A stretch of 64,000 bases of DNA from an uncultured Lachnospiraceae bacterium (GTDB taxonomy: Bacteria > Bacillota > Clostridia > Lachnospirales > Lachnospiraceae). The notes under the pieces are model-generated. The model was not told the DNA's origin, made no database searches, and saw only the letters and a program-made list of their open reading frames with translations. The stretch lies in contig CANPZI010000006.1 in the NCBI GenBank assembly GCA_947588995.1, positions 1 through 64,000 on the forward strand, given 5' to 3'. The first letter of the stretch is position 1; each line of letters starts with the position of its first letter. This document shows positions 32,067 to 50,705 of the stretch, piece after piece. The position numbers were made by a program, and so were the translations under genes.

Positions 32067-34256
32067 ATGTCAATCAGTTATGATGAGAACGAGAGAATTT
32101 TCAAATTGGACACAAAGAACAGCACCTATGCGATAGGTGTGGTGGACGAGGAGGGCTTTCTGGCGCACATCTATTACGGCGACAGGCTGCGGGAGGGCCA
32201 GGTGGGCAGTCTCCTGCGGACGGACGAGCCGCCGTTTGTGCCCTCTGTGAACGACCGCGACAGAGTTTCTTTTCTGGACAGCTGCCCGATGGAATATCCG
32301 GGGCACGGTCTGGGGGATTACCGGGAGAGCTGTATCAGCGTCAGGACGGGGAACGGCAGCAGCGCCGTGGGGCTGCAGTATGTCTCCCACAAGATCACGG
32401 CGGGCAAGACTTCTTTCCGGGATCTGCCGTCTTCTTTCGGCGCGGAGGGGGAGTGCGGCGTGCTGGAGATCACCTGCGAGGACAGGGCGGCCGGGCTTAC
32501 GGTGGCGCTGCAGTACGGGGTGTTTGATGACACGGATGTCATTACCAGAAGCGTGCGGGTGTGCAATACGGGTAAGGATGCTGTCTGGCTGACAAAAGTG
32601 TACTCCGCCTGTCTCGACATGGACGATCAGGGCTTCGAGGCCATCTCCCTCCACGGCTCATGGGCGAGGGAGCGGCAGATGCAGAGGGTGCCTGTCAGCC
32701 ACGCCAAGTTAAATGTGGAGTCTGTCCGGGGAGAGTCGGGACATCAGGATCACCCTTTTATGGCGCTGGTGACACCGGGGACGAATCAGGAGACGGGGCG
32801 GGTCTACGCCATGCACTTTGTCTATTCGGGGAATTTCAGGGTGCAGGTGCAGTCGGATCAGTTTGACCAGGTGCGCATGGTCATGGGAATCCATCCGGAA
32901 GATTTCTGCTGGAAGCTGCTGCCCGGGGAGAGTTTTCAGTCACCGGAGGCGGTGATGGTGTATTCGGGGACAGGGCTTTCCGGCATGACCCATACGTTCC
33001 ATGATTTCTATAGAAAACATTTGATCCGCAGCCCTTACAGGGACAGGAAACGGCCTGTCCTGATCAATAACTGGGAGGCGACGTATTTTGATTTCAACAC
33101 GGAGAAACTGATCGAGATTGCGCGGCAGGCGGCGGCGCTCGGCATAGAGATGCTGGTGATGGACGACGGCTGGTTCGGGAATCGTTTCGACGACAATCGC
33201 GCGCTGGGAGACTGGTTTGTAAATGAGGAAAAGCTGCCGGGCGGGCTCGCGTATCTGGCGGATCAGGTAAACGGGCTGGGGATGAAGTTCGGCATCTGGT
33301 TCGAGCCGGAGATGATCTCGCCGGACTCCGAGCTGTACCGGGCGCATCCTGACTGGGCGATCGCCATCCCCGGCAGGCGGGCGTCGCTTTGCCGCAACCA
33401 GTATGTGCTGGACCTGTCCAGGCCGGAGGTGCGGGATTATGCTTACGAGGCGGTGGCATCCGTCCTGCGGAGTGCCAACATCGCCTATGTGAAGTGGGAT
33501 ATGAACAGGCAGCTCTCCGATCTGGGTTCTGCCGCGCTTCCCGCGGACAGGATGGGAGAACTGTACCACAGGTATGTGCTGGGCGTATATGAGATGCAGG
33601 AGCGGCTTCTGCGGGAGTTCCCGGATCTGCTTTTGGAGAACTGTTCCGGCGGCGGGGCAAGATTCGATCCGGGCATGCTCTATTACAGTCCGCAGATCTG
33701 GTGTTCCGACGATACGGACGCCATAGAGCGGCTGAAGATACAGGAGGGGACGGCGATGATTTATCCGCTCTCCACGATGGGCGCGCACGTCTCCGCCTGC
33801 CCGAACCATATCGTGGGCAGAGTCACGCCTTTTGAGACGAGAGGGCATGTGGCGCTGATGGGCACATTCGGGTATGAGCTGGATGTGACGGCCTTAAGCG
33901 AGGAGGAGAAGCAGATGATACCGCAGCAGGTGGCCATGTACCACAAGTACAATGACCTGATCCGGGAGGGCGATTACTATCGGGTCGCTTCCTATGCGGA
34001 GAACCACGCTTTCGACTGCTGCGGCGTGGTGGGAAAAGACAGGACGGAAGCGCTGTATCTGTATGTGCAGGTGCTGGGCAGACCGAACTGCCGCAGCCGG
34101 CGGATCCGTTTTCCGGGACTGGCGGAGGACAGACAGTACCGTCTGGAGGGGGAAGAGAGAATCTATGCGGGAGAGCTTCTCGTGAAAGCGGGTATGAACA
34201 TACAGGATCTCCATGGCGATTTTCAGAGCCGTCTCCTCCACTTTACGGCGGTCTGA
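32067..34256 (+). CDS. Alpha-galactosidase, GH36
   Basis: This 729-residue cytoplasmic enzyme removes alpha-1,6-linked galactose from galacto-oligosaccharides or galactomannan fragments. It has the GH36 layout: an N-terminal beta-sandwich, the barrel motif MLVMDDGWFGNR near 373, the nucleophile Asp near 478 in YVKWDMNR, and the acid/base Asp near 548 in WCSDDTDAIERL. There is no signal peptide. It leads the LacI-type regulator gene downstream and sits next to the mannan uptake operon, so removal of galactosyl side chains from imported manno-oligosaccharides is its likely job. Confidence 0.96.
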   Translation: MSISYDENERIFKLDTKNSTYAIGVVDEEGFLAHIYYGDRLREGQVGSLLRTDEPPFVPSVNDRDRVSFLDSCPMEYPGHGLGDYRESCISVRTGNGSSAVGLQYVSHKITAGKTSFRDLPSSFGAEGECGVLEITCEDRAAGLTVALQYGVFDDTDVITRSVRVCNTGKDAVWLTKVYSACLDMDDQGFEAISLHGSWARERQMQRVPVSHAKLNVESVRGESGHQDHPFMALVTPGTNQETGRVYAMHFVYSGNFRVQVQSDQFDQVRMVMGIHPEDFCWKLLPGESFQSPEAVMVYSGTGLSGMTHTFHDFYRKHLIRSPYRDRKRPVLINNWEATYFDFNTEKLIEIARQAAALGIEMLVMDDGWFGNRFDDNRALGDWFVNEEKLPGGLAYLADQVNGLGMKFGIWFEPEMISPDSELYRAHPDWAIAIPGRRASLCRNQYVLDLSRPEVRDYAYEAVASVLRSANIAYVKWDMNRQLSDLGSAALPADRMGELYHRYVLGVYEMQERLLREFPDLLLENCSGGGARFDPGMLYYSPQIWCSDDTDAIERLKIQEGTAMIYPLSTMGAHVSACPNHIVGRVTPFETRGHVALMGTFGYELDVTALSEEEKQMIPQQVAMYHKYNDLIREGDYYRVASYAENHAFDCCGVVGKDRTEALYLYVQVLGRPNCRSRRIRFPGLAEDRQYRLEGEERIYAGELLVKAGMNIQDLHGDFQSRLLHFTAV

Positions 34257-34286: not shown

Positions 34287-35312
34287 ATGGCGAAAGCGGT
34301 AAGGCTGGCGGATATTGCCAGGATCATGAATGTCAGCACAGTGACAGTCTCCAAGGCGCTGTCGGATCAGAAAGGTGTTAGCGAGCAGCTGCGGGAGAGG
34401 ATCAAGAAGCAGGCCAGGGAGATGGGATATCAGTCGCCGGCCGCCGCCAGGCTGGCGCGGGCCGGCAGGGGACTCCACATCGGTGTGGTGATTTCCGAGC
34501 GTTATTTTGACAGGTTTGAATCTTTCTACTGGCAGATGTATCAGGAGATCACGACACTGGCGGCTTCCCAGGAGTGTTTTGCCATGTTGGAGATGCTCGG
34601 CATCGAGGCGGAGCGGAAGCTGGAACTGCCGCGGATGGTGCGGGAGAACCAGGTGGACGGCATCATCATCGTGGGCCTCTTGCGGGACGAGTATCTGCAG
34701 CTGGCAGAGCAGCGCTTTCGGGTGCCGCTCATCTATCTGGACTTCTATGACAAAAGCTATGAGTGCGACGCGGTGATCACCGACAACTATTTCGGGATGT
34801 ACAAGCTGACCAACCACCTCTTCGACATGGGGCATCGCGACATCGCCTATGTGGGGACACTGCTCTACACGGGGAGCATCACGGACCGCTATTTCGGCTA
34901 TGCCAAGGCGCTTCTGGAGCACGGGCAGCAGGTGCGGCCGGAGTGGGTCATCGACGATCGGAATCCGGACACGGGACAGCGGGACGGGGATTTCTCTTTC
35001 CGCCTGCCGGAGCGGATGCCGACGGCTTTTGCCTGCAACTGCGACATGACGGCCGGCGCCCTGATCAATCTCCTCAGGGAGAAAGGCTGGCGCGTCCCTG
35101 AAGATATCTCCGTGGTGGGCTACGACAATTACATCCATCCCAGCCTGTGCAGCGTGGGGATCACCACCTACGAGGTGGATATCCGGGAGATGGTGCGCTG
35201 TGCGGTTATGAGCCTGCTTGGCAAAATGACGGGCGGGGACTACCGGCGTGGCATCACCATAGTGCCGGGGCACATGGTGCCTAAGGACAGCGTGAGAGAT
35301 CTGAACAAATAG
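34287..35312 (+). CDS. LacI-family regulator of the alpha-galactosidase/mannan region
   Basis: The 341-residue regulator has an N-terminal helix-turn-helix (LADIARIMNVSTVTVSKALSDQKGVS) followed by a sugar-binding sensor domain (HIGVVISERYFDRFESFYWQ, and SVVGYDNYIHPSLCSVGITT near the end). It starts 31 bp after the alpha-galactosidase gene, so the two form one transcript and the regulator probably controls its own promoter. Galactoside or mannoside effectors are plausible; none can be assigned from sequence. Confidence 0.9.
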   Translation: MAKAVRLADIARIMNVSTVTVSKALSDQKGVSEQLRERIKKQAREMGYQSPAAARLARAGRGLHIGVVISERYFDRFESFYWQMYQEITTLAASQECFAMLEMLGIEAERKLELPRMVRENQVDGIIIVGLLRDEYLQLAEQRFRVPLIYLDFYDKSYECDAVITDNYFGMYKLTNHLFDMGHRDIAYVGTLLYTGSITDRYFGYAKALLEHGQQVRPEWVIDDRNPDTGQRDGDFSFRLPERMPTAFACNCDMTAGALINLLREKGWRVPEDISVVGYDNYIHPSLCSVGITTYEVDIREMVRCAVMSLLGKMTGGDYRRGITIVPGHMVPKDSVRDLNK

Positions 35313-36232: not shown

Positions 36233-36602
36233 TCCTTTTCCGTTTTAGTCTGCGGGGCGTGTCTCCGCAGACTTTTGTATCTATTATAATACGAAAAGGA
36301 AGAGCGGGCAAACGCAGCATATGAATAAAGTTAAAATTAAGCTAAAAATTAGCTTATCAAAAAAGAAATTTATTCGGGGAAAGTTGCTAAAAAAGGGAGG
36401 AGAATAGGATATAACGCACAAAATAAATGCTTAAAAATTGTATAAATAGTAAAAAATGATGAAATAAGCAATAACGCGATATATATAGCAATTATGCGTG
36501 ATGACTAAAAAAATGGATTAAATATAATTAAATTTAGGTTATCACATAACCTGCCGGAGGAAGATGGTTTCCGACGGCATTTCAAAAAGGAGGATATTTA
36601 TT
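36233..36602 (+). promoter_or_regulatory. AT-rich control region of the mannan uptake operon
   Basis: This gene-free stretch holds two perfect palindromes: TAAGCTAA-aaa-TTAGCTTA at 36338-36356 and AGGTTAT-cac-ATAACCT at 36536-36552. A -10 TATAAT lies at 36523-36528 with a weak -35 (ATGACT) 16 bp upstream, so the second palindrome covers the expected transcription start. A partial hairpin (GCCGGAGGAA with TTTCCGACGGC) precedes the start codon. Confidence 0.65.
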
Positions 36603-38063
36603 ATGAAGCTGAAAAAAGTTTTGGCTCTCGGAATGGCAGCGGCGATGACATTGTCCGTAGTCGGCTGCGGTTCCGACGGCGCTGCGGAAGCACCTGCTGC
36701 AGACAGCGCTGCGGACACGGAGACGGAAGCACCCGCCGCGGATGACACCGCTGAGGCAGAGGCGGAAGCTCCCGCGGCTGACGCTGAGGCGGGCAGTGTG
36801 CCCACTTACTCCCAGATCACGGTAGGCGAGGACTACACGGATCTGACAGCGTCCATCAAGTGGATCCACCACAAGACGGACCGTGAGGAGGACGGCACGA
36901 TCGCGAACATGATCGCGGAGTTCAACAAGGTATACCCGAACATCACGGTTGAGACGGAGGGCGTTACCGATTACGCTGAGGACTCCCTGCTTCGCCTGAC
37001 CACCGGCGACTGGGGTGACATCATGTTTATCCCCGCGGTAGACAAGGCTGATCTGGCAACCTACTTCCAGCCGATTGACACGCTGGACAATCTGTCCAAG
37101 GAGATCAACTTCGCGGACGCATGGCAGTTCGACGGCACCTGCTACGGCGTGCCTTACATGGCTAACGCACAGGGCGTTCTCTACAACAAGGCTGTATTTG
37201 AGGCGGCAGGCATCACGGAGCTTCCCAAAACACCTACGGAGTTCCTGGAAGATCTGCAGCTGATCAAGGACAACACGGATGCGATTCCGCTGTACACCAA
37301 CTATGCGGCAGGCTGGACGATGGGCGCATGGGATGCCTATGTCGGCTGCGTATCCAACGGTGATGACACCTACATGAACCAGAAGTTCGCGCACACGGCG
37401 GAGCCTTTTGCGGATCCCGGCGATGACACGGGCGCATACAACCTGTACAGGATCCTCTACGACGCTGTTGCCAACGGCCTGACCGAGGAAGACTACACCA
37501 CGACCGACTGGGAAGGCTGCAAGGCTATGCTCAACAACGGTGAGATCGGCGCGATGGTACTCGGCTCCTGGGCTTACGCACAGATGGTAGAGGCGGGCGA
37601 TCACGGCGACGACGTCGGCTATATGCCTTTCCCGATGACGGTAGGCGGCACGCAGTATGTACTGGCAGGCGGCGACTACAACTACGCGATCAACGTGAAC
37701 GCTTCCGATGAGAACAAGACGGCGGCGATGGTATTCATCAAGTGGATGACGGAAGATTCCAACTGGTGCTACAACGAGGGCGGCTACACGGTAGATATCG
37801 ACGGCGAGAACCCGCCGATGTACGCGGCATTTGACGGCTGCACCGTACTTTCCGATCAGCCCGCGCTTCCCGGCGAGGAGACACTGCTCAACGATATCAA
37901 CGCAGAGTCCGAGCTCTCTTTCAACGCAGGCGGCGATGCCAAGGTACAGAGAATCGTAGAGGCGGCGGCGACAGGCTCCGAGACCTTTGACGATATCATG
38001 GCTGACTGGACGGCGGCATGGAACGACGCACAGGCAAGCCTCGGCATTGAGGTAAACAACTAA
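36603..38063 (+). CDS. Carbohydrate ABC transporter substrate-binding lipoprotein
   Basis: The 486-residue protein is a family 1 extracellular solute-binding lipoprotein. Its signal peptide ends in the lipobox VVGC at about residue 21, followed by a roughly 40-residue acidic Ala/Glu/Asp tether. The binding domain contains the family features LRLTTGDWGDIMFIPA, GVPYMANAQGVLYNKAVFEAAG and MTEDSNW. Genomic context with GH130 enzymes, cellobiose 2-epimerase and acetylesterases points to manno-oligosaccharides as ligand, as in the Roseburia mannan importer. The AGGAGG site fixes the start at 36603. Confidence 0.92.
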   Translation: MKLKKVLALGMAAAMTLSVVGCGSDGAAEAPAADSAADTETEAPAADDTAEAEAEAPAADAEAGSVPTYSQITVGEDYTDLTASIKWIHHKTDREEDGTIANMIAEFNKVYPNITVETEGVTDYAEDSLLRLTTGDWGDIMFIPAVDKADLATYFQPIDTLDNLSKEINFADAWQFDGTCYGVPYMANAQGVLYNKAVFEAAGITELPKTPTEFLEDLQLIKDNTDAIPLYTNYAAGWTMGAWDAYVGCVSNGDDTYMNQKFAHTAEPFADPGDDTGAYNLYRILYDAVANGLTEEDYTTTDWEGCKAMLNNGEIGAMVLGSWAYAQMVEAGDHGDDVGYMPFPMTVGGTQYVLAGGDYNYAINVNASDENKTAAMVFIKWMTEDSNWCYNEGGYTVDIDGENPPMYAAFDGCTVLSDQPALPGEETLLNDINAESELSFNAGGDAKVQRIVEAAATGSETFDDIMADWTAAWNDAQASLGIEVNN

Positions 38064-38082
38064 AAAACAGGCAGTAAATAAC

Positions 38083-38111
38083 CGAGCCAAGGGGCAGGTC
38101 TCCTTGGCTCG
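38083..38111 (+). promoter_or_regulatory. Hairpin between binding-protein and permease genes
   Basis: CGAGCCAAGG (38083-38092) pairs with CCTTGGCTCG (38102-38111). There is no T-run. Such hairpins often stabilise the upstream message so that the binding protein is made in excess over the permeases. Confidence 0.75.
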
Positions 38112-38132
38112 ACTTATCAGGAGGGTGCGTGT

Positions 38133-39137
38133 ATGACGGCTATGACTCGGGGTGCAAAACCGGCGGGCAGGACGTTCGGGGAGTGGATCAGGAGCAGAGA
38201 CGGGCAGAAAGTGCTGGTCATGATCGCTTTCATGGTCATTCCGCTGGGGCTTTTGTTTACTTTTACATATCTGCCATTTGCCGAAATGTTCGGCTTCAGT
38301 TTCTATGATATGAAGTATATCGGCGCGAGAAAATTCGTCGGTATGAAGAATTACATCAAGGTATTTCAGAGGGACGACTGCTTCAGGGCTCTGAAGCTGA
38401 GCCTCTATTATATGGGCGGTTCGGTGGTTCAGCTCGTTCTGGCGCTGTATCTGGCGACGATCTTGAGCTTCAAGGTAAAGGGCGGCAGCATTTTCAAGGG
38501 ATTCATGTTTTTCCCGTATCTGATCAACGGTATCGCAATCGGTTTCATCTTTAAGTTTTTCTACACCAGAGGCTTCGTGTTCGACACGGTGCTTCAGTGG
38601 TGCGGTTTTAACCTGGATAATCTTCCGTACTGGCTGAGAGACCAGCGGATCAACAATATTTCTCTGGTTGGCACTTCGGTGTGGCGTTATTTCGGACAGA
38701 ACATGGTGCTCTTCATCGGCGCGATCATGTCGGTGGACTCCGAGCTGTACGAGGCGGCCATGCTGGACGGCGCCAACAGGTTCCAGCAGTTTAAGTACAT
38801 CATCATGCCGAGCATCAAGACCATCATCACGCTGAACGTGATCCTGTCGATCACCGGCTCCCTGAGCGCATTCGAGCCGCCTTACGTGATCACGGACGGT
38901 GCGAACGGCACGGGAACCTACTTCGTAGTCATGAATGAGATCGCGCACACCCAGCAGAAAGTGGGCCTGGCATCGGCCATGGCGATTGTCCTTCTCATGA
39001 TTATCTTCGCGGCGACGATCTTACAGAAGCTGTTCTTCAAGTATGTCTTTAGGAGCGCCGACGACGAGGACTTAAACGCAACGGCAAGACGGGACAAAAA
39101 GCTGGCGAAACTGGCGGCGAGAAAGGCGGGGAGATAG
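38133..39137 (+). CDS. Sugar ABC transporter permease (MalF/UgpA type)
   Basis: The 334-residue integral membrane protein has six predicted helices and the EAA loop YEAAMLDGANRFQQFKYIIMPSI near residue 205, which docks the ATPase. A positively charged N-terminus precedes the first helix and a charged tail (RRDKKLAKLAARKAGR) ends it. It follows the binding protein and directly abuts the second permease. No ATPase gene is present in the operon, so a shared MsmK-type ATPase encoded elsewhere is expected. Confidence 0.93.
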   Translation: MTAMTRGAKPAGRTFGEWIRSRDGQKVLVMIAFMVIPLGLLFTFTYLPFAEMFGFSFYDMKYIGARKFVGMKNYIKVFQRDDCFRALKLSLYYMGGSVVQLVLALYLATILSFKVKGGSIFKGFMFFPYLINGIAIGFIFKFFYTRGFVFDTVLQWCGFNLDNLPYWLRDQRINNISLVGTSVWRYFGQNMVLFIGAIMSVDSELYEAAMLDGANRFQQFKYIIMPSIKTIITLNVILSITGSLSAFEPPYVITDGANGTGTYFVVMNEIAHTQQKVGLASAMAIVLLMIIFAATILQKLFFKYVFRSADDEDLNATARRDKKLAKLAARKAGR

Positions 39138-39986
39138 ATGACAATCGTACAGAAAATATCCAAATATGTATTGATAATCCTGAAATATTTTTCGCTGGTG
39201 TTCTTCTCTTTCGTGGCGGTGCTGCCGATTGTGTCCGTCTGCATCACGGCGTTTAAGACGGATGTGGAGTACCAGCAGACCAACGTCATGACATTGCCCG
39301 AAAGCTGGCTGAATTTCACCAACTTTACGCAGGCGTTTATCAAGGCGAACATGGGGCGGGCTTTTCTCAACTCCACGATCATCCTGATCTGCACGCTGGT
39401 GGCTTCCGTGCTGATCGGCACGCAGCTCGCCTATGTGCTGGACCGCTTCAAGTTTCCGGGCAACGGCCTGATCCGCAGCCTCTTCCTCTTCGCCTCGCTC
39501 CTTCCGGGTGTCGCGATGCAGGTGTCGGTGTACGAGATCATGTGGAAACTGCACTTTATCAATTTCCTGCCGGGTTACATCATCCTGATGTGCGGCACGG
39601 ACGTTATCTCGATTTATATTTATATCCAGTTCTTTGAAAATATCGATTTCTCGCTGGACGAATCGGCGATCATGGACGGGGCCTCCTACTTCACGATTTT
39701 CTACAGGATTCTGCTGCCGCTCTTAAAGCCGGCGATTGTGACCTCCTGTATCTTAAAGGGTGTGGGAACCTACAACGAATACTACATGGCCAACCTGTAT
39801 CTGCAGGATAAGAAGAAACTGGCGACTGTGGCGACCTCCCTCTACACGTTTGTGGGGCCGCTGGGCAGCAAGTACAACCTGATCTGCGCGGGCGTCATCA
39901 TCTCGCTTCTGCCGGCGTTAATTGTGTTCATCACCTGCCAGAAGCAGATCTACAGCGGACTTACCGCGGGCGCGGTCAAGGGTTAA
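39138..39986 (+). CDS. Sugar ABC transporter permease (MalG/UgpE type)
   Basis: This 282-residue partner permease begins at the base after the previous stop codon, indicating translational coupling. It has six helices and the EAA loop DESAIMDGASYFTIFYRILLPLLKP near residue 173. With the preceding permease it would form the membrane channel of the manno-oligosaccharide importer. Confidence 0.93.
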   Translation: MTIVQKISKYVLIILKYFSLVFFSFVAVLPIVSVCITAFKTDVEYQQTNVMTLPESWLNFTNFTQAFIKANMGRAFLNSTIILICTLVASVLIGTQLAYVLDRFKFPGNGLIRSLFLFASLLPGVAMQVSVYEIMWKLHFINFLPGYIILMCGTDVISIYIYIQFFENIDFSLDESAIMDGASYFTIFYRILLPLLKPAIVTSCILKGVGTYNEYYMANLYLQDKKKLATVATSLYTFVGPLGSKYNLICAGVIISLLPALIVFITCQKQIYSGLTAGAVKG

Positions 39987-40068: not shown

Positions 40069-41232
40069 ATGATGGTAGAAGAAGTAAGAAAACATCTGAC
40101 GGAGGGGATCATTCCTTTCTGGAAGAAGATGCGGGATGATCAGTTCGGCGGTTATTACGGCTATATGGATTATGACCTGAAAGTGGACCGGAAAGCGGTT
40201 AAAGGCTGCATCTTAAACAGCCGTATCACCTGGTTTTTTGCAAATGCTTACCTCCTCCTTAAGGATGAGGATCTGCTGGCGCAGGCGCGTCACGGCTATG
40301 AATTTATGAAGCGCTGCTGTCTGGATACGGAGCAGGGCGGGGTGTACTGGTCGGTGGCTTACGACGGCACGCCGGAAGACACCACCAAGCACACCTACAA
40401 TCAGGCGTTTTCGATCTATGCGCTGTCGTCTTACTATGACGCGTCCGGGGATAGAGAGGCGCTTAATACGGCGATGGCGCTCTACCGCATCATCGAGGAG
40501 CGCTGTACGGACGAGATCGGCTACAAGGAGGCTTTTGACAGGAATTTTCATGAGATTGACAATGACAAGCTGTCCGAGAACGGTGTGATGGCAGAGAAGA
40601 CAATGAACACGCTCTTACATGTGTTCGAGGCCTACACGGAGCTGTACCGCGTGTCGCATGACGCGGAGGTGGGAGAGAGACTGAAATGGATTCTGGACAC
40701 TTTCGCCGACAAGGTGTACAATCCGGCGCTGCAGCGGCAGGAAGTTTTCTTTGACAGAGATATGCGCTCCATCATTGATCTGCACTCCTATGGGCATGAC
40801 ATTGAGACGGCGTGGCTGATCGACAGGGGTGTGGAGATTCTGGGCGACACGGCGTACAGAGAGAAGCTTTCGCCGATCACGGAGGCGCTGACACAGAAGA
40901 TTTATGAGACTGCTTTTGACGGGCATTCGCTTGCGAACGAGTGCGAGAACGGCGTGGTGAATACGCACCGCATCTGGTGGGTGCAGGCGGAGACGGTGGT
41001 AGGCTTCCTGAACGGCTGGCAGAGGCATCCGGAGAGGAAGGAATATCTGGAGGCCGCCGAGGCGGAATGGGCGTTTATCAAGGCGCACGTGATCGATCCG
41101 CGCGACGGTTCCGAGTGGTTCTGGGAAGTGGACGAGACGGGGAAACCCTACGAGGGGAGGCCTATCGTGGAACCCTGGAAATGTCCCTACCACAACGGCA
41201 GAATGTGTATGGAAGTGATTAAGAGAAGCTGA
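40069..41232 (+). CDS. Cellobiose 2-epimerase
   Basis: The 387-residue AGE-superfamily enzyme has an alpha/alpha-barrel and converts the reducing-end mannose of beta-1,4-mannobiose into glucose (and cellobiose into glucosylmannose). Characteristic parts are the N-terminus EEVRKHLTEGIIPFWKKM, KGCILNSRITWFF, and the catalytic histidine regions THKYNQAF-like KHTYNQAF, DLHSYGHDIETAWL and THRIWWVQAE. It precedes the two GH130 phosphorylases, which use its product, as in Ruminococcus and Roseburia. Confidence 0.93.
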   Translation: MMVEEVRKHLTEGIIPFWKKMRDDQFGGYYGYMDYDLKVDRKAVKGCILNSRITWFFANAYLLLKDEDLLAQARHGYEFMKRCCLDTEQGGVYWSVAYDGTPEDTTKHTYNQAFSIYALSSYYDASGDREALNTAMALYRIIEERCTDEIGYKEAFDRNFHEIDNDKLSENGVMAEKTMNTLLHVFEAYTELYRVSHDAEVGERLKWILDTFADKVYNPALQRQEVFFDRDMRSIIDLHSYGHDIETAWLIDRGVEILGDTAYREKLSPITEALTQKIYETAFDGHSLANECENGVVNTHRIWWVQAETVVGFLNGWQRHPERKEYLEAAEAEWAFIKAHVIDPRDGSEWFWEVDETGKPYEGRPIVEPWKCPYHNGRMCMEVIKRS

Positions 41233-41244
41233 GGAGAGTTTGCC

Positions 41245-42420
41245 ATGCTGCATGAAAAATATGCTGAGGAGCTGAAAAAATACGAGGCTCTGATCAACAG
41301 AAAAAATCAGGAGGACACGGATTTCTACAACGGCGTGTACACGAGGTACCGCTATCCGGTACTCACGAGGGAACATATTCCTCTGACCTGGGAATACGAC
41401 CTGAATCCCGGGACCAACCCCTATTTTATGAAGAGACTGGGGATCAACGCGGTCTTAAATTCCGGCGCGATCAAGTTAAACGGCAAGTATTACCTGGTGG
41501 CCAGGATTGAGGGGGACGACCGCAAATCTTTCTTCGGCATTGCGGAGAGCGACAGCGGAGTGGACGGGTTTCGTTTCTGGGATTATCCCATTCTGCTGCC
41601 GGACACCTGCCCGGAGGAGACAAATGTGTATGATATGCGCCTGACGCAGCACGAGGACGGCTATATCTATGGCGTGTTCTGCTCGGAGAGCAAGGACACC
41701 ACCGTCAATGACCTGTCGGCGGCGGTGGCGGCGGCCGGCATTGTGCGGACGAAAGACTTAAAAACCTGGGAGAGGCTGCCCAACCTGGTGACGCTGCACT
41801 CTCCGCAGCAGAGGAACGTGGTACTTCATCCGGAGTTTGTAAACGGCAAGTATGCTTTTTACACCCGTCCCATGGACGACTTCATCGAGACGGGGTCCGG
41901 CGGCGGCATCGGCTTTGGCCTCTGCGACGACATCACCCATGCGGTCATCGACGAGGAGAAGATGACCAGCCTGCGGAAGTATCACACGATCACGGAGGCC
42001 AAGAACGGCGCGGGCGCGGTGCCGATCAAGACGGAAAAGGGCTGGATCCATATCGCCCACGGCGTGCGCAACACGGCAGCCGGACTGCGCTATGTCATCT
42101 ACGCGTTCGCGACGGACCTGCAGGATCCCTCCAGAGTGATCGCGGAGCCGTCGGGACTGCTGATCGGACCGCGGAAAGAGGAGCGGGAAGGGGATGTGGC
42201 CAACGTGGTCTTCACCAACGGCGCTATCGCGGACGACAACGGCGACGTCTACATCTACTATGCGTCCAGCGATACCAGGGTGCATGTGGCCCGCACCACG
42301 ATCGACAGACTGATCGACTATGTATTCCACACGCCGGAGGATCCCCTGCGCAGCGTCAAGTGCGTGGAGCAGAGATGTGAACTGATCCGCAGGAATCTGG
42401 ATTTTTTGGCACAACAGTAA
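41245..42420 (+). CDS. 4-O-beta-D-mannosyl-D-glucose phosphorylase, GH130_1
   Basis: This 391-residue inverting phosphorylase splits mannosyl-glucose with phosphate into mannose 1-phosphate and glucose. GH130 features include the catalytic Asp in [18 protein letters not shown] near residue 130, the phosphate-binding basic residues in [12 protein letters not shown] and the five-bladed propeller repeats. The larger size and N-terminal helix ([20 protein letters not shown]) separate subfamily 1 from the smaller enzyme downstream. It starts 12 bp after the epimerase gene. Confidence 0.93.
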
Positions 42421-42466: not shown

Positions 42467-43489
42467 ATGAGTGAAGTGAAGATGATTGCCCCGGCAGTCA
42501 AGAATGTACCCTGGCAGGAAAAACCCGCGGGGCTTACGGGTGCTCCCGTGTGGAGATATACGGAGAACCCCATCATCGGCAGAAACCCGATACCGGGTGT
42601 CGCCCGCATCTTTAACAGCGCGGTCATGCCCTACGGCGATGAGTTTATCGGCGTTTTCAGAGGCGAGCAGACCAACGGCATCCCCTATATCTATATGGGG
42701 AGGAGCAAGGACGCGATCCACTGGGATTTCGATCAGAACAAAATCCCGTTCGTGGACGAGGAGGGCAACCCCTTTATGCCCAGATACGCCTATGACCCCA
42801 GACTGGTGAAGGTGGAGGACACCTACTATATCATCTGGTGCCAGGATTTCTACGGCGCCGCCATCGGTATGGCCAAGACCACAGATTTCAAGACCTTTAC
42901 GAGGCTGGAGAATCCGTTCCTCCCTTACAACAGAAACGCGGTGCTCTTCCCGCGGAAGATCCACGGCAACTTCATGATGCTCAGCCGTCCTTCCGACAGC
43001 GGACATACGCCTTTTGGGGATATCTTCGTCAGCGAGAGCCCGGATCTCGTGTACTGGGGCAAACACAGACATGTGATGAGCCAGGGAAACGAGTGGTGGG
43101 AGTCCCTGAAAATCGGCGGCGGCGCGGCGCCGATCGAGACGAGCGAGGGATGGCTCCTGTTCTACCACGGCGTCAGCGGCACCTGCAACGGCTATGTCTA
43201 CTCCATCGGCGGCGCGATTCTGGACTTGGAGAATCCTTCTATCGTCAAATACCGGTGCGAGAATTTCCTGATTACGCCGGAAGAGTGGTATGAGGAGAGA
43301 GGCTTCGTGCCCAACGTCTGCTTCCCCTGCGCCACGATTCACGACCCGGAGAGCGGCAGGATCGCCATCTATTACGGCTGTGCGGACAGCTATGTTGGTC
43401 TTGCTTTCACGCAGTTCGAGGATGTCATGGCATATATCAAGGAACACAGCGTCCTGACCGAGACAGACACGGAGATCGGGAGACGTTAG
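42467..43489 (+). CDS. Beta-1,4-mannooligosaccharide phosphorylase, GH130_2
   Basis: The 340-residue enzyme removes mannose from the non-reducing end of manno-oligosaccharides as mannose 1-phosphate. Its GH130 motifs are FNSAVMPYGDEFIGVFRGE, the catalytic Asp in YDPRLVKVEDTYYIIWC near residue 110, and NRNAVLFPRKI. It complements the preceding GH130_1 enzyme, which handles the final disaccharide. A terminator-like hairpin follows, so the esterase genes downstream may be expressed less. Confidence 0.93.
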   Translation: MSEVKMIAPAVKNVPWQEKPAGLTGAPVWRYTENPIIGRNPIPGVARIFNSAVMPYGDEFIGVFRGEQTNGIPYIYMGRSKDAIHWDFDQNKIPFVDEEGNPFMPRYAYDPRLVKVEDTYYIIWCQDFYGAAIGMAKTTDFKTFTRLENPFLPYNRNAVLFPRKIHGNFMMLSRPSDSGHTPFGDIFVSESPDLVYWGKHRHVMSQGNEWWESLKIGGGAAPIETSEGWLLFYHGVSGTCNGYVYSIGGAILDLENPSIVKYRCENFLITPEEWYEERGFVPNVCFPCATIHDPESGRIAIYYGCADSYVGLAFTQFEDVMAYIKEHSVLTETDTEIGRR

Positions 43490-43570: not shown

Positions 43571-44698
43571 ATGAAAGAATATGACATTCGGCCGCAGCAG
43601 GGGCTGATCCACAGAGGAAACTGGCGTATGCTGAAACAGTGTATGAAAAAGGCGCGCGCCGGGGAGAAAGTGACGGTCGGTTTCCTGGGAGGCTCCATCA
43701 CACAGGGAAGTCTCTCCAGCACGCCACAGACTTGCTATGCTTATCTGGTGTACGAGTGGTGGAAGCGGAGATTCCCCGCGGCCGAGATTGTCTATGTCAA
43801 CGGTGGGATCGGCGGTACGACTTCACAGTTCGGCGTATCCAGGGTCAGGGAGCATATGCTCTGCCACAGGCCGGATTTTTTGCTGATCGAGTTTGCGGTG
43901 AACGACGACAACACGCCATTCTTTGAGGAGACTTATGAAGGGCTGATCCGCACCGTGCTGGGACAGGACGAAGCGCCGGCGGTGCTTTTGATGAACAATG
44001 TGCGCTATGACAACGGGGAGAATGCGGAGGAGATGCATCTGAAGGCAGCCGAGGCTTACGCGCTTCCCATGGTGAGCATGAAGCCCGTGATCTGGCCGAA
44101 AGTCTCGTCGGGGGAGATTGTGCGGGCAGAGATCACACCGGACGGCCTGCACCCCAACGACGCGGGACATCGCCTCGTCGCTTCGGTGGTCACGGCCTGT
44201 CTGGACCGGATCTATGAAGAGATGGACAGAGAGGAGGAGCCTGCCTTTGCGGACGGTTCTCTGCCGGCGCCCGTCACGGCCAACGCTTACGAACATTCCG
44301 TGCGGTATCAGAATCACAATACCGAACCTCTCCTCGCGGGCTTCCGGGCGGACCGGGCGCCTTCGGAGAACATTCTGGACATCTTCACGGGAGGCTACAC
44401 CGCTTCCCGCGCGGGCGATAAGATCACGTTCCGGGTGACGGGGACGGGGATTGCCGTACAGTACAGAAAGTCGGTGAACAAGCCGGCGCCTGTGGCGAAA
44501 GCGGTCATAGACGGCGATGAGGCTGGCGCCGTGATTTTGGATGCCAATTTCGACGAGGACTGGGGCGACTGCCTGTATATTGAGACGGTGCTGTATCACG
44601 GGGAGAATAGAGAACATCTGGTGGAGATCACGATCACGGAGGCGCATGAGGACGACGCGGTGCCTTTTTATCTGGTTTCCGTCATAGGCTCCTGTTAA
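43571..44698 (+). CDS. SGNH acetylesterase, CE17-like, with C-terminal CBM35-like domain
   Basis: The 375-residue cytoplasmic esterase begins with an SGNH hydrolase domain: block I GFLGGSITQGS (Ser near 39), the Asn block FAVNDDN, and block V DGLHPNDAGH with catalytic Asp and His near 194-197. Residues 250-375 form a beta-rich module resembling CBM35. This two-domain layout in a GH130 locus matches the mannan 2-O-acetylesterase (CE17) of Roseburia. It would deacetylate imported manno-oligosaccharides before phosphorolysis. The specific linkage is inferred from context. Confidence 0.82.
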   Translation: MKEYDIRPQQGLIHRGNWRMLKQCMKKARAGEKVTVGFLGGSITQGSLSSTPQTCYAYLVYEWWKRRFPAAEIVYVNGGIGGTTSQFGVSRVREHMLCHRPDFLLIEFAVNDDNTPFFEETYEGLIRTVLGQDEAPAVLLMNNVRYDNGENAEEMHLKAAEAYALPMVSMKPVIWPKVSSGEIVRAEITPDGLHPNDAGHRLVASVVTACLDRIYEEMDREEEPAFADGSLPAPVTANAYEHSVRYQNHNTEPLLAGFRADRAPSENILDIFTGGYTASRAGDKITFRVTGTGIAVQYRKSVNKPAPVAKAVIDGDEAGAVILDANFDEDWGDCLYIETVLYHGENREHLVEITITEAHEDDAVPFYLVSVIGSC

Positions 44699-44735: not shown

Positions 44736-45695
44736 ATGAATCAGGAGAATCATGCGCGGGGCGCGGAGGCGATCAGCTTTGCGCCGGTGTTGAAAGAGAC
44801 GGTCTGGGGCGGAGAGAGGCTGTACGGGGAGTACGGTTACGGTGTGCCGGGCCGTAAGGTCGGTGAGTGCTGGGCCGTCAGCGCCCACCCGAACGGCGAC
44901 TGTGTGGTGCGCGAGGGCGCATACCGGGGCAGGACGCTGTCGCAGCTCTGGCGGGAGGAGCCGCAGCTGTTCGGCGGCGCGGCGAAAGGGGAGTTCCCGC
45001 TGCTCGTCAAGGTGATCGACGCGGCGGACGATCTGAGTATTCAGGTGCATCCCGACGATGCCTACGCGGCGGCGAACGAGAACGGCTCTCTGGGAAAGAC
45101 GGAGTGTTGGTATATTCTGGACTGCGCGCAGGACGCAAGGCTGGTGATCGGCCACAACGCCGACACGAAGAAAGAACTGGCAGATATGGTGGAGCAGGGC
45201 AGATGGAAAGAACTGATCCGTGAGGTTCCCGTGCACAAGGGCGATTTCGTGCAGATCAATCCCGGCACCGTCCACGCCATCAAGGGAGGCATCATGCTGT
45301 TAGAAACGCAGCAGAGCAGCGACGTGACCTATCGTCTCTACGACTATGACAGGCTCTCGGACGGCAGGCCGCGGCCCCTGCATATCAGGCAGAGCCTGGA
45401 TGTGATCACTGTGCCGGCAGCGCCCGCGGATGTGAAAGAGACCGCCTCTCTGCCGGCGAACGAGCTGCACCTGCTGATCGCCTGCCGGTATTACCGGGTG
45501 TGGAAGCTGGCGCTGGCCGGAAGCTTCTCCATGGAGCAGGACTGCCCGTTCCTTCTCATGAGTGTTGTGGCGGGCACATGCCGCATGAACGGCAGACCTG
45601 TCGGTAAGGGCGAACATTTGCTGTTGCCCGCGGGATATGGCAGCGTGGAAATTGAGGGAGAGGCGGAAATTATTTTTTCGTCGGTCAACGAGTAG
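44736..45695 (+). CDS. manA: Mannose-6-phosphate isomerase, class I
   Basis: This 319-residue zinc enzyme interconverts mannose 6-phosphate and fructose 6-phosphate. It shows the cupin metal site: QVHPDDAYAAANE near residue 102, GKTECWYIL with a metal Glu, and PGTVHAIKGG near 178. The length fits the short Firmicutes form. It connects mannose released in the locus to glycolysis, though the phosphomannomutase needed to convert mannose 1-phosphate is not in the window. Confidence 0.94.
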   Translation: MNQENHARGAEAISFAPVLKETVWGGERLYGEYGYGVPGRKVGECWAVSAHPNGDCVVREGAYRGRTLSQLWREEPQLFGGAAKGEFPLLVKVIDAADDLSIQVHPDDAYAAANENGSLGKTECWYILDCAQDARLVIGHNADTKKELADMVEQGRWKELIREVPVHKGDFVQINPGTVHAIKGGIMLLETQQSSDVTYRLYDYDRLSDGRPRPLHIRQSLDVITVPAAPADVKETASLPANELHLLIACRYYRVWKLALAGSFSMEQDCPFLLMSVVAGTCRMNGRPVGKGEHLLLPAGYGSVEIEGEAEIIFSSVNE

Positions 45696-45716: not shown

Positions 45717-46844
45717 ATGACAGAGAATGAGAGAGTGCGCTATGTGCCGCTTAAGGAGGCGCAGTGCAGGGTGCACGGCAGGACGGACAAAAGTCAGGAT
45801 CCGCTGCCGTTATTCTGGAACGGCAGCTTGGTGGAAGTCAACGTCACGGGGAGTGAACTCTGGATTGATCTGGAGGTGGATTACGAGAATTATGAGCCCT
45901 GGGCCGGCTGTGATATCAACGGCGCGTTCCTGTCCAGACAGATGCTGATGCCGGGCAGATACCGGCTCTGTCTGTTTCGGGGCATGGATCCGAAGAAAGT
46001 GAAGAACGTGCGCTTTTTCCGGGAACTGCAGGCGATGAGCGAGGACGATGCCAACCATATCCTGATTCACGGCTTCGCCACGGACGGAGCGTTTCAGCCT
46101 GTGCCGGAGGCGCGTTACAGGCTGGAGTTTATCGGGGACAGCATCACTTCGGGAGAGGGCACTTACGGCGCGCTGGAAGAGGTGGACTGGATCTCCATGT
46201 TCATGAGCGTGAGCAAAAATTACGCCGTGATGACATCGCGGGCGCTGGGGGCGGATTTTCATCTCCTCTCGCAGGGCGGCTGGGGCGTGCTGTGCGGCTG
46301 GGACAACAATCCGCACAACAATCTGCCTTTCTGCTATGAGGAGACCTGCGGATTGCTGCACGGCAGTGTCAACGAGAAGCTTGGGGCGCACAAGCCGTGG
46401 GATTTTGCCTCCTGGCAGCCGGATGCCGTCATTGTCAATCTGGGGACCAACGACGCCAGCGCGTTTCACCAGCCTGTGTGGACGGATCCGGCCACGGGGG
46501 AGAGCTTTGAGCAGCATCTGGAGACGGACGGTTCCTGGCGCGAGGCGGATATCGAGAGATTCAGACAGGCGGTGATCGCTTTCCTGAAAGTGATCCGCAA
46601 GAACAATCCGAAAGCGCATATCGTCTGGACTTACGGTATGCTGGGCTATGAACTGACGCTTCCCATCACGGAGGCGATAAACAGGTATCGGGCGGAGACG
46701 GGAGACGGCAACACGGTCTTTCTGCAGCTGCCCAACACGACGCGTGAGACGGTGGGCTCCCACGAGCACCCCGGCGCAAAGTCCCATGAGCGGGCGGCCG
46801 GCGTGCTGACAGAGTATCTGAGAACGGTTTTGGAAGGCGTGTGA
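45717..46844 (+). CDS. Acetylesterase, CE2-like
   Basis: The 375-residue protein has the two-domain structure of carbohydrate esterase family 2: an N-terminal jelly-roll of about 130 residues (GSLVEVNVTGSELWIDLEVDYE, ending before FATDGAFQPVP) and a C-terminal SGNH domain with EFIGDSITSGEGTYG (Ser near 144), NLGTNDAS and the catalytic His in HEHPGAKSHERAA. There is no signal peptide. With the CE17-like enzyme it would remove acetyl groups at different mannose positions, as reported for the Roseburia pair. Its stop overlaps the start of the following sensor gene. Confidence 0.87.
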   Translation: MTENERVRYVPLKEAQCRVHGRTDKSQDPLPLFWNGSLVEVNVTGSELWIDLEVDYENYEPWAGCDINGAFLSRQMLMPGRYRLCLFRGMDPKKVKNVRFFRELQAMSEDDANHILIHGFATDGAFQPVPEARYRLEFIGDSITSGEGTYGALEEVDWISMFMSVSKNYAVMTSRALGADFHLLSQGGWGVLCGWDNNPHNNLPFCYEETCGLLHGSVNEKLGAHKPWDFASWQPDAVIVNLGTNDASAFHQPVWTDPATGESFEQHLETDGSWREADIERFRQAVIAFLKVIRKNNPKAHIVWTYGMLGYELTLPITEAINRYRAETGDGNTVFLQLPNTTRETVGSHEHPGAKSHERAAGVLTEYLRTVLEGV

Positions 46845-49159
46845 GCGGACAGATGAAGAAAAAGAGAAAAAGACCCATCATCGGGTTCCTGGTCAGCGGC
46901 ATTACGGACGAGTTCACCAAGAATATCTGTCTGGGCGCGCTGCAGGAGGCCAGGGCGCTGGACGTGGACATGGTGGTGCTGCCGGGCAAATATCTGGACA
47001 GGGATTTCGGCGGCAACAGAGAGATCATGTACGAGTACCAGCATAATACCATATTTACCTATCCCGGCCGGGACAATCTGGACGCGATGCTGGTGGCGGC
47101 GGACTGTATCGGCTGCTACACCACCCACGAGCGTGTGGAGGCGCTGATGAGGTGCTATGGGGACATTCCCACCGTGCTGGTGGCCTCCAAGCTGGAGGGC
47201 TATGTCCATGTGACTTTCGACAATTATTCCGGCATACGGCAGGGCATGGAGTACCTGATCGACGTTCTGGGCTGCCGCCGCTTCGGCATGATCGGCGGGC
47301 CGGAGAGCAACTTTGACGCCTGCGAGCGCAGGGAGATCTTCATGAAAGTGCTTGCGGAGCATAACCTGCCTTATCGGCCGGAAAATTACGAGGAGGGGGA
47401 TCTCTCCCGCTCCTGCAGGGATGTTTTCAGCCGTTTCCTTGATCGCAATCCGGACGTGGAGGCGGTGGTCTGTGTCAACGACGAGACGGCGCTCGGCTTC
47501 TACGAGGAGCTGAAACGGCGTGATATCATGCCCGGCAGAGACATCTGTGTGCTGGGGTACGACGACACCATCAACGCGACCAAGGTCAATCCGTCGCTCT
47601 CTTCCGTGGCGGCGGACCCGATGGAGCTGGGGGAGCGCGGGCTGCGCATGGTGCTGAAGATGCTGGAAGGGGAAGAGGTCGAGAGCACGGTACTCTCCAC
47701 CCGGTTCATTCTGCGCAATTCTTTCCGCGCCGTGCAGGAGGAGAGCGGGCAGGAGGCTGACGCGGAGCGGATCGTCTACGACGCGGATCATCTCTTCGAC
47801 GATATCTTCTACCGCTATATCCATGAGAGCTATGGCGAGATGCTGGACGGGCTGCGCGATTCCTACCGGAATCTGGTGGGAGAGATTGTCAGGCAGTTCG
47901 TGGAGGAAGGCGAGGGACGGTGCGACGCGGCGATCTCCTATCTGGAAGAGTTTCTCGGCTATGACGCTGTCCGCTACGCGGATATGGGAATCCTGCTCCA
48001 TACGTTCGAGCAGATATACCACAGACTGCGGAAACGGCAGAGCGGCGCGGACGGCCTGCAGAAGCTGAGCAGCCTGTTCTCCCATATCTACAGGCGCATC
48101 ATCCGCTCCATGGACTACGAGTCGGGCGTGGTGCTGGCCAAAAATATGGAAGAGAACTATGCCATGAAGATCTTCGTGCGGGACATCCTGCAGTTTGAAA
48201 AGGGAGGCGACCAGAGCTATGCCGCCCTGTTAGGGAACCTGAAATGGCTCAAGATCAAAACGGCTTTCGTCTATACCTTTGAAAAACCCATGATCCACCT
48301 GAACGGAGAGTGGTTCGAGCGGCCGTCGCATATGTACCTGAAAGCGGCGCTGCAGGACGGCAGATTCCTGGCGGTGCCGACCGCGAGACAGCGGCAGGGG
48401 ATTGAGAATCTGTTCCACAACAGCTATATGAAGACGGACAGAAGGTACTCGCTGGTGCTCCTGCCGCTGTATTCCAATGAAGTGCTCTACGGTGTTCTGC
48501 TGTGCGACCTCTCCTATCCGATCTATGAGAACGGCGAATTTCTGGTCAGCCAGATGAGTTCCGCCGTGAAGATGATCTATCTGCTTCGGACCAACGAACA
48601 GATCCAGCAGCAGCTGGAAGAAAATCTGGTGACGCTCAGGGAGAGCAATATCGAGCTGGACACGCTCTCCAAATCCGACGGATTGACCGGTATACTCAAC
48701 AGGAGAGGCTTCAACGACGGAGCGGAGAAACTGCTGGAAGAGTGCAGAAAATCGGGTCACAGCACACTGGTGGTCTATGTGGATATGAATAACCTGAAGA
48801 TCATCAATGACCGGTACGGTCATGAGGAGGGAGACTTTTCCATCGGCCTGATCGCGGAGACGTTGAAGAAGATTGTGGGCGAACACGGGGTTGTGGGCAG
48901 GATCGGCGGAGACGAGTTCGCCTGTCTGATGGGATACTGGGAGGAAGACGGCGGGGAGAGCTTTCTCACCCAGATCTATGCGGCTTTCGACGCTTTCAAC
49001 AAGGACAGCGACAAGCGCTATAATATCACCGTCTCGGCAGGGGCGGTCCTGCTGACGCCGGACCATTATCTGCCGCTGGCGGACGCGCTGAGCGAGGCGG
49101 ACGAGCGGCTCTATGAAGTCAAAAAATACCGGCTCAAGGACGTGGCCAAGAAAGAGTGA
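46841..49159 (+). CDS. LacI-type sugar-binding domain fused to a GGDEF diguanylate cyclase
   Basis: The 772-residue protein combines a periplasmic-binding-protein-like sensor of the LacI kind (residues about 10-295: IIGFLVSGITDEFTKNICLG, VCVNDETALGFYEE, VLGYDDTINATKVNPSLSSV) with a helical stretch, a GAF-like region (about 440-590) and a C-terminal GGDEF domain (about 610-765) with intact RIGGDEFA. It has no helix-turn-helix, signal peptide or membrane helix, so it should sense a cytoplasmic sugar and make cyclic-di-GMP. The RxxD inhibitory site is absent. It overlaps the CE2 gene by four bases and ends the mannan operon. GTG 46841 or ATG 46853 may be the start. Confidence 0.88.
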   Translation: MSGQMKKKRKRPIIGFLVSGITDEFTKNICLGALQEARALDVDMVVLPGKYLDRDFGGNREIMYEYQHNTIFTYPGRDNLDAMLVAADCIGCYTTHERVEALMRCYGDIPTVLVASKLEGYVHVTFDNYSGIRQGMEYLIDVLGCRRFGMIGGPESNFDACERREIFMKVLAEHNLPYRPENYEEGDLSRSCRDVFSRFLDRNPDVEAVVCVNDETALGFYEELKRRDIMPGRDICVLGYDDTINATKVNPSLSSVAADPMELGERGLRMVLKMLEGEEVESTVLSTRFILRNSFRAVQEESGQEADAERIVYDADHLFDDIFYRYIHESYGEMLDGLRDSYRNLVGEIVRQFVEEGEGRCDAAISYLEEFLGYDAVRYADMGILLHTFEQIYHRLRKRQSGADGLQKLSSLFSHIYRRIIRSMDYESGVVLAKNMEENYAMKIFVRDILQFEKGGDQSYAALLGNLKWLKIKTAFVYTFEKPMIHLNGEWFERPSHMYLKAALQDGRFLAVPTARQRQGIENLFHNSYMKTDRRYSLVLLPLYSNEVLYGVLLCDLSYPIYENGEFLVSQMSSAVKMIYLLRTNEQIQQQLEENLVTLRESNIELDTLSKSDGLTGILNRRGFNDGAEKLLEECRKSGHSTLVVYVDMNNLKIINDRYGHEEGDFSIGLIAETLKKIVGEHGVVGRIGGDEFACLMGYWEEDGGESFLTQIYAAFDAFNKDSDKRYNITVSAGAVLLTPDHYLPLADALSEADERLYEVKKYRLKDVAKKE

Positions 49160-49160
49160 G

Positions 49161-49204
49161 AAATCTCCCGTTCGACAGGGTATCTGCCGGACGGGAGATT
49201 TTTT
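49161..49204 (+). terminator. Terminator of the mannan operon
   Basis: AAATCTCCCGT (49161-49171) pairs with ACGGGAGATTT (49191-49201), followed by a run of six T. Confidence 0.92.
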
Positions 49205-49215
49205 ACGCCAGTCAC

Positions 49216-49385: not shown

Positions 49386-50705
49386 ATGGAGGTAAGGATC
49401 GCGCCGCGGATGTCGGTCACGGAAAAACTGAAGATTCTGGCGGATGCCGCAAAGTATGACGTGTCTTGCAGCTCCAGCGGCTCTTCGAGAAGAAACGACG
49501 GCACGGGAATCGGCAATACGCTGGCGGCGGGTATCTGCCACAGCTTTGCGGCGGACGGCAGGTGTATTTCTCTGTTGAAAATTCTTTTTACGAATGAATG
49601 TATCTATGACTGCAGATACTGTATCAACAGATGTTCCAACGATGTGCCGCGGGCTTCTTTCACGCCGGATGAGGTGTGCAGTCTGACGATGGAATTTTAC
49701 AGGCGCAATTATATAGAAGGTTTGTTTTTGAGTTCGGGGATTCTCTACAGTCCCAATTACACGATGGAACTGATCTGCGAGACGCTGCACAAGCTGCGCA
49801 CGGTGCACCGCTTTCAGGGATATATCCATGTGAAAGCGATACCGGGCGCGGATCCGGCCCTCATACAGCGGGCGGGTTATCTGGCCGACCGCATGAGTGT
49901 GAATCTGGAGATGGCGACGGCGGAGGGGCTTAAGGAGATGGCGCCGAACAAGCACCGCAGCAACATCTTAAAACCGATGCGCCAGATTCAGAACGGCATC
50001 GCGGCAAACCGCAGCGAGCTGGCGCTGTATCGGCATGCGCCGCGCTTCTGCGAGGCCGGACAGTCCACGCAGATGGTGATCGGGGCGCTGCCGGAGAGCG
50101 ATTATCAGATTCTGTCGGTGGCGGAGAGCCTGTATGATAAGTTTTCCTTAAAAAGGGTATATTATTCGGCGTTCGTCAATGTGAACGGGGATAAGTCGCT
50201 GCCCGCGGCGGCGTCCGGGCCGCCGCTTCTTCGTGAGCACAGGCTCTACCAGGCGGACTGGCTTTTGCGCTTCTATGATTTCCGGGCGGACGAACTGCTG
50301 ACGAAAGAACGGCCGAATTTCAATATGGCGATTGATCCGAAAGCGGACTGGGCGGTGCGGCATCTGGAATATTTTCCCGTGGAAGTCAACAGCGCGGACT
50401 ACAAGATGCTTCTCCGCATTCCCGGCGTGGGCGTGAAGAGCGCGAGGCGCATCGTGGCGGCGAGACGGTTCGGCGGCCTGACTTTCGCGGATCTGAAGAG
50501 GATGGGTGTCGTTCTGAAGAGAGCGCTGTACTTCATCACCTGCGGCGGCAGGATGCTGTACCGCACGAAGATCGAGGAGGACTATATCGTGCGGAACCTG
50601 ACGTATCAGAATCGGATGGGCCGGGGAGAAAAGCTGCCCTTTATGGCGGATGGTACGGCTTACAGACAGATGTCTCTGTGGGACTGCGGGATGCTGTCGG
50701 GATAG
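49386..50705 (+). CDS. Putative DNA modification/repair radical SAM protein (TIGR03916 type)
   Basis: This 439-residue protein starts with EKLKILADAAKYDVSCSSSGSS, typical of the TIGR03916 family, and carries a radical SAM cluster motif variant CIYDCRYCINRC near residue 76. A helix-hairpin-helix DNA-binding motif (LLRIPGVGVKSARRIVAARR) lies near 345. Members are predicted to act on DNA, but no reaction has been established to my knowledge. It is followed 14 bp later by its usual partner. ATG 49386 has GGAGG at suitable distance; ATG 49410 is an alternative. LexA boxes at its promoter support a DNA-damage role. Confidence 0.88.
   Translation: MEVRIAPRMSVTEKLKILADAAKYDVSCSSSGSSRRNDGTGIGNTLAAGICHSFAADGRCISLLKILFTNECIYDCRYCINRCSNDVPRASFTPDEVCSLTMEFYRRNYIEGLFLSSGILYSPNYTMELICETLHKLRTVHRFQGYIHVKAIPGADPALIQRAGYLADRMSVNLEMATAEGLKEMAPNKHRSNILKPMRQIQNGIAANRSELALYRHAPRFCEAGQSTQMVIGALPESDYQILSVAESLYDKFSLKRVYYSAFVNVNGDKSLPAAASGPPLLREHRLYQADWLLRFYDFRADELLTKERPNFNMAIDPKADWAVRHLEYFPVEVNSADYKMLLRIPGVGVKSARRIVAARRFGGLTFADLKRMGVVLKRALYFITCGGRMLYRTKIEEDYIVRNLTYQNRMGRGEKLPFMADGTAYRQMSLWDCGMLSG

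Follow-up and report, generated by a model that had tools for sequence, protein, structure and literature searches.

Here, we report a fusion gene (46841–49159, plus strand) in a 64,000-nucleotide stretch of DNA from an uncultured Lachnospiraceae bacterium (assembly GCA_947588995.1, contig CANPZI010000006.1, positions 1 to 64,000), hereafter the window, in which a LacI-type ligand-binding domain, a GAF-like region, and a GGDEF diguanylate cyclase domain are joined in one polypeptide. Judged from its sequence, the product is rather likely to be a soluble diguanylate cyclase of the cytoplasm that is gated by a ligand, probably a sugar; its gene changes place and is located here in a mannan operon. 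The open reading frame (ORF) gives 772 amino acids from a GTG start; an in-frame ATG at 46853, from which the protein is 768 amino acids long, agrees better with the starts of the relatives. The LacI-type domain covers residues 5–298 (46853–47734), the GAF-like region with its linker helix residues 435–605 (48143–48655), and the GGDEF domain residues 611–762 (48671–49126), all on the plus strand.

Both ends of the protein are recognized by Pfam, Peripla_BP_3 at residues 143–294 (E 1.8e-22) and GGDEF at residues 611–762 (E 5.4e-31). The LacI helix-turn-helix (HTH) domain (PF00356) gave no match in a Pfam scan of the fusion protein, whereas the same library does detect the HTH in the regulator of the operon (34287–35312). 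In profile searches, the fusion matched LacI-family regulators (9nt3, E 3e-48; 5ysz, which we take to be CelR, E 9.2e-41; PurR was also among the matches) and a diguanylate cyclase (4urs, E 2.2e-36). The window protein has the Peripla_BP_1/3 profile together with the ligand-contact R, N, and D, and it has the GG[DE]E[FY] signature together with the metal- and GTP-binding residues; the motif itself reads RIGGDEF, and the position of the inhibitory I-site (residues 680–683) is G-E-H-G, not RxxD. A preliminary description of this DNA had proposed a LacI-type ligand-binding domain without a DNA-binding domain and an intact GGDEF domain without RxxD, and both proposals are borne out.

Conservation was read from an alignment (A1) of 61 full-length fusions (ORFs of at least 740 amino acids with E <1e-50) that come from Lachnospiraceae and a second family. 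Shorter or cut rows were excluded (L060 and L073 of genome G122, L126 and L127 of G432, L090, L094, L096, and L129), as were one ORF of L128 and the shorter types found in L062 and L064. L112, which duplicates L021, was also dropped; the L115 sequence begins at a hand-picked internal ATG. Peripla_BP_3 and GGDEF were both detected by Pfam in 61/61 members. R163 and D241, which line up with a conserved R and D of LacI-family chains, are invariant in all 61, and N213 is present in 59; we take these three to be the ligand-contact positions of the LacI family. In the cyclase domain, D648, N656, D665 (presumably the residue as in GTP-specific cyclases), R687, and G690-D691-E692 are invariant in 61/61, and the full GGDE[FY] motif is found in 59 members, the first G being substituted in the other two. 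RxxD is present in 13 of the 49 rows matched by our pattern, the remaining 12 of the 61 being outside its coverage. Compared with the sister species (L021, 95% identical), the ratio of nonsynonymous to synonymous substitution rates (dN/dS) was 0.076 over the whole gene; taken separately, the LacI-like part had 0.063 and the GGDEF part 0.052. Low dN/dS and invariant residues together suggest that the protein is maintained as a likely binder and a likely cyclase.

The name of the middle region needs more care. Pfam GAF gave no match in any of the 61 members at E 0.01 and none in the middle regions of 46 members at E 10. A profile search of this region against solved structures returned five matches, none significant: the top one was an RNA polymerase Rpb6 chain (E 0.078), and the next four were 6oza, 6ozb, 6bhn, and 8w26 (E 0.39–5.8), whose matched domains we take, from the molecule names, to be of GAF or phytochrome type. 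When the 46-member profile was compared with five E. coli GAF domains by hhalign, the match had E 3.3e-4 and a probability of 38 over 44 columns only, while 13 controls, of which eight were shuffled, one was reversed, and four were other segments of this family's proteins, had a probability of 0.1 or less. The GAF-like region of the preliminary description is thus retained as a weak profile–profile likeness and not as a Pfam domain; we consider the name "GAF-like" fair but weak, i.e., modestly supported.

In a Lachnospiraceae sample, 41 of 397 genomes had a match to the fusion at E 1e-60 or better; in a phylum-wide sample three of 398 matched at 1e-40, namely the window's own genome, G180 (which is in the family set), and one genome of another family. 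Within the genus, 16 of 77 genomes carry the fusion, and 63 carry GH130b, the second of two glycoside hydrolase family 130 (GH130) genes in the window. The fusion lies inside the mannan operon only in the window genome and its sister (2/16 carriers). It follows folC-folE-folP-folBK-like genes (names read by eye) in seven genomes (L113–L119) and occupies a second conserved site in six (L120–L125), where, read by eye, five have a TraX-like gene downstream and four have a LacI-type regulator immediately upstream; in one carrier the fusion is split over contigs. The gene, found at no fewer than three sites within one genus, has therefore changed place. No mannan genes were found in the fetched fusion flanks of the 14 genus carriers other than the window genome and its sister. 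The folate site, located in 12 genomes, was without the fusion in 7/7 fetched regions, including those of the window genome and its sister, and at these empty sites the flanking genes abut or have only an acetyltransferase gene between them. The difference between occupied (L113–L119) and empty (L151–L157) folate-cluster junctions looks like the insertion or the loss of one gene. The expectation that the fusion would be kept in the mannan operons of relatives therefore failed within the genus: the fusion is not a fixed part of such operons, the family moves, and some of its members are in mannan loci.

The family also has some unusual relatives. Three ORFs end just after the GAF-like region, without GGDEF (L090:6770–8545, minus strand; L096:8840–10594 and L129:8880–10595, plus strand), and Pfam finds only Peripla_BP domains in them, which makes them relatives of the sensor-only kind. 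An 8.3-kb contig from another family (L128, f103) has three fusion copies on the same strand, two of them with GGDEF and one truncated where the contig stops. There is also a second, shorter type, Peripla_BP plus GGDEF, of 638 and 669 amino acids (L062:11249–13165 and L064:5820–7829, both minus strand), located beside or near the long type.

To score linkage to mannan genes, the window genes were run by tblastn (cut-off 1e-8) against fetched stretches no longer than 20 kb. GH130, GH36, epimerase, CE2, GDSL esterase, and ManA were counted as markers; generic sugar-transport matches (L091, permeases of 26–27%) and sugar genes seen by eye near L056, L095, and L099 were not. It should be noted that several stretches are short at contig ends (e.g., L069, L071, L072, L073, L087, L099, L126, and L128), where linkage may be missed. 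In the 61-row tree, the window falls in a clade of 24 rows with full support in the approximate likelihood ratio test (SH-aLRT 100), and mannan or alpha-galactosidase markers were found in the fetched stretches of 6/24 clade rows versus 0/37 other rows. The linked rows form three groups: the window and its sister; L053 and L055, from two other genera, whose stretches also contain GH130, GH36, CE2, and an esterase of SASA or similar type; and L052 and L054, from a third genus, with GH36 20–27 nucleotides downstream of the fusion and GH130b on another contig. The same fusion beside GH130 genes in other genomes, which the preliminary description had suggested looking for, is thus seen in the L053 and L055 stretches, and a link to glycan loci exists for three groups of the clade, while most members show no such marker in their fetched stretches. 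Outside the clade, L063, L074, L076–L078, and L083 adjoin genes resembling, by eye, MTHFR or purM/purN; together with the folate-site group, these neighbors hint at a one-carbon or purine context.

GH130b was present in 8/11 clade genomes (G122 added) versus 75/386 in the rest of the family sample (Fisher 2.6e-4, post hoc), and in 7/30 genomes with other, non-clade fusions, which is like the background. If the GH130 match of G044, a 52% paralogue, is excluded and only close GH130b is considered, the counts become 7/11 versus 66/386 (Fisher 9.7e-4). A 21-row sub-clade with G122 gives 7/8 versus 76/389 (Fisher 9.4e-5), but its fork had a support of 92 without a star in the first tree and is unresolved in the careful tree, so we prefer the 24-row figure. 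Assuming a probability of 0.01–0.03 per random landing, at least three mannan-type landings in 11 distinct places would have p 0.00016–0.0037, again post hoc. The clade, the sub-clade, and the 11 distinct places were all defined after the contexts had been seen, and all of these p-values overstate the association because the groups were picked in this way and relatedness is ignored. The trigger-factor scores of the clade genomes range from 3e-204 to 1e-134, indicating that not all of them are closely related to the window. We consider the link between the fusion and mannan plausible.

How such a protein may work can be pictured from its anatomy, from which we infer the relay as well as the ligand, the sign of the response, and the phenotype. 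A small molecule, most likely a sugar, would bind in the cleft of the cytoplasmic LacI-type domain, which would then close; this movement would reach the GGDEF dimer by way of the helical and GAF-like region and then the linker helix, and it would set the rate of cyclic di-GMP (c-di-GMP) synthesis up or down, without product inhibition at an I-site. Given the recurrent context, a mannan-derived saccharide is, as a first guess, the best single candidate ligand in this species. The window's own genome has 14 further GGDEF-type matches, and its eight EAL and three PilZ matches are homologues of c-di-GMP receivers and degraders. A search for c-di-GMP-I riboswitches found none in the genome and none in 14 control genomes either, and is uninformative.

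Two alternatives are narrower versions of this ligand-gated cyclase and differ from each other in the ligand. The ligand may have no connection with mannan (it could be a general metabolite, a different sugar, or a nucleobase- or pterin-type molecule), and the position in the operon would then be a chance landing with mere co-expression; we regard this as quite possible, though short of an even chance. It accounts for the gene occupying at least three sites in the genus (mannan operon in two genomes, folate site in seven, second conserved site in six) and being missing at the folate site in all seven fetched regions, the window genome included, and it is consistent with the six non-clade rows beside MTHFR- or purM/purN-like genes and with PurR among the profile matches. 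A chance landing fits poorly with markers in 6/24 clade rows and in none of the other 37, with the post hoc estimate for at least three landings in 11 places (0.00016–0.0037 at an assumed 0.01–0.03), and with GH130b in 8/11 clade genomes versus 7/30 with other fusions. The other version is that of the preliminary description, in which an intracellular mannoside directly sets c-di-GMP levels and links fibre use to lifestyle, and we hold it as a tentative idea with the balance tilting away from it. The fusion is co-directional with and closely spaced from the CE2 gene and has a hairpin after it, two other genera have related fusions inside mannan loci (L053 and L055), a third has them 20–27 nucleotides ahead of GH36 (L052 and L054), and GH130b co-occurs with the clade, all of which would suit a mannoside ligand; at the same time the fusion is not retained in the mannan operons of the genus, L052 and L054 are linked to GH36 only with GH130b on another contig, and the co-occurrence may reflect shared ancestry or carriage. 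In a bolder form, the gene for a one-protein, intracellular sugar-to-c-di-GMP switch would travel through Lachnospiraceae genomes as a single unit, and beta-mannan or galactomannan loci would have captured it repeatedly; the cytoplasmic level of a mannan breakdown product would then directly set c-di-GMP and, through it, attachment, motility, or the mode of fermentation while fibre is being used. This form appears rather unlikely to us. Three context changes are needed in the careful tree, but its well-supported branches force only one; we rejected repeated capture as an established event, since these branches are compatible with a single origin followed by losses.

Several observations weigh against our favored explanation or against the mannan reading of the preliminary description. 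Within the genus, the fusion and GH130b are on different contigs in 13/16 carriers, and one carrier has no GH130b match; the mannan loci fetched from other species of the genus, 20 in all, do not show the fusion within the stretch obtained; and the two genes do not track each other (GH130b in 15/16 genomes with the fusion versus 48/61 without, Fisher 0.15). Mannan marker genes were not found in the fetched stretches of 55/61 rows, and for all fusions together the association with GH130b is weak (15/41 versus 68/356, Fisher 0.011). Folate-site and second-site relatives share much ligand-domain sequence with the mannan-linked ones, therefore either the same sugar is sensed from elsewhere or the ligand is something else, and it may have nothing to do with mannan. 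The AlphaFold model of the window protein, with two near-identical sequences as input, had a mean predicted local distance difference test score (pLDDT) of 37.5 and was discarded. On the cyclase side, degenerate GGDEF domains that serve as GTP or c-di-GMP sensors exist, and the GGDEF domain here could likewise be inactive, with the protein acting by contact; the invariance of D648, N656, D665, R687, and G690-D691-E692 in every member and the GGDE[FY] motif in 59 of 61 make this very improbable.

The fusion gene is co-directional with the beta-mannan operon, closely spaced from the CE2 gene, and the last in order. All on the plus strand, the genes are a GH36 alpha-galactosidase (32067–34256); a canonical LacI regulator with HTH, presumably the operon regulator (34287–35312); a solute-binding protein, found by domain scan, and the two next genes, which we take from their position to be sugar ABC permeases (together 36564–39986); a cellobiose 2-epimerase-like gene (40069–41232), presumably a mannobiose epimerase as in mannan loci; two GH130 mannoside phosphorylases (GH130a, 41245–42420; GH130b, 42467–43489); a GDSL esterase (43571–44698); the mannose-6-phosphate isomerase ManA (44736–45695); and a CE2-type acetylesterase of the GDSL kind (45717–46844), whose CE2_N match is slightly below its cut-off. 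These neighbors are as described before. The overlap with the CE2 gene described at the same time depends on the start codon: it is four nucleotides (46841–46844) with GTG 46841, and with the better-fitting ATG 46853 there is instead an 8-nucleotide gap. That the fusion ends the operon agrees with an intrinsic-terminator-like hairpin with a U-tract immediately after its stop (49156–49206, plus strand, −33.8 kcal/mol, z −7.46), although a simple terminator scan did not have this hairpin among its calls; a conserved terminator was rejected, as the sister species shows no such hairpin. We also rejected the idea that the sensor derives from the LacI regulator of the operon, to which it is 26% identical over part of the domain (E 1.8e-4); the identity of the window fusion to fusions elsewhere in the genus is 48–55%. 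Directly after the operon there is a radical-SAM/UDG-linked putative DNA-repair pair (TIGR03916 and TIGR03915, 49113–51493), which is kept in the sister species and whose first gene probably starts at 49386 rather than at the ORF start, 49113.

If the protein senses a catabolic sugar, a single polypeptide would tie the internal sugar level of gut fibre degraders to a second messenger. Natural test pairs are available in the family, whose related members are found in a mannan operon, behind folate genes, or at other places. The fusion resembles the LacI/GalR sugar repressors (LacI, RbsR, and 5ysz) in its ligand-binding domain profile and in the contact R and D, but those repressors have an HTH DNA-binding domain, whereas the fusion has none and has a GGDEF domain as its output. 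It has the complete catalytic motif in common with GGDEF cyclases that carry sensor domains (e.g., the DgcN/YfiN model and 4urs) and differs from them by its soluble LacI-like input and the lack of an I-site. Our searches of open-licence PMC papers brought up no characterized diguanylate cyclase whose sensor is a cytoplasmic LacI-type domain. Periplas_BP, a domain also present in LacI regulators, is given among the putative sensory domains of c-di-GMP proteins, where it may bind sugars, in an excerpt of PMC8846402; going by that excerpt, the domain pairing is therefore already known. The solute-binding proteins described in passages of PMC9602780 are extracytoplasmic and stimulate receptors, unlike the cytoplasmic fusion. 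Going by an extract of PMC6385246, the MULL locus of Roseburia intestinalis is like the window in having a LacI regulator, an ABC importer, an epimerase, GH130 phosphorylases, esterases, and GH36; "diguanylate" and "c-di-GMP" each occur 0 times in the main text of that paper. According to a partial text of PMC6828939, the aml operon of Actinoplanes has a LacI-type regulator, a maltase, and a final GGDEF-EAL gene, and a coupling of maltose use and c-di-GMP has been proposed there; the LacI regulator and the GGDEF protein are separate in Actinoplanes, whereas in the window the putative sensor and the predicted cyclase are in one protein.

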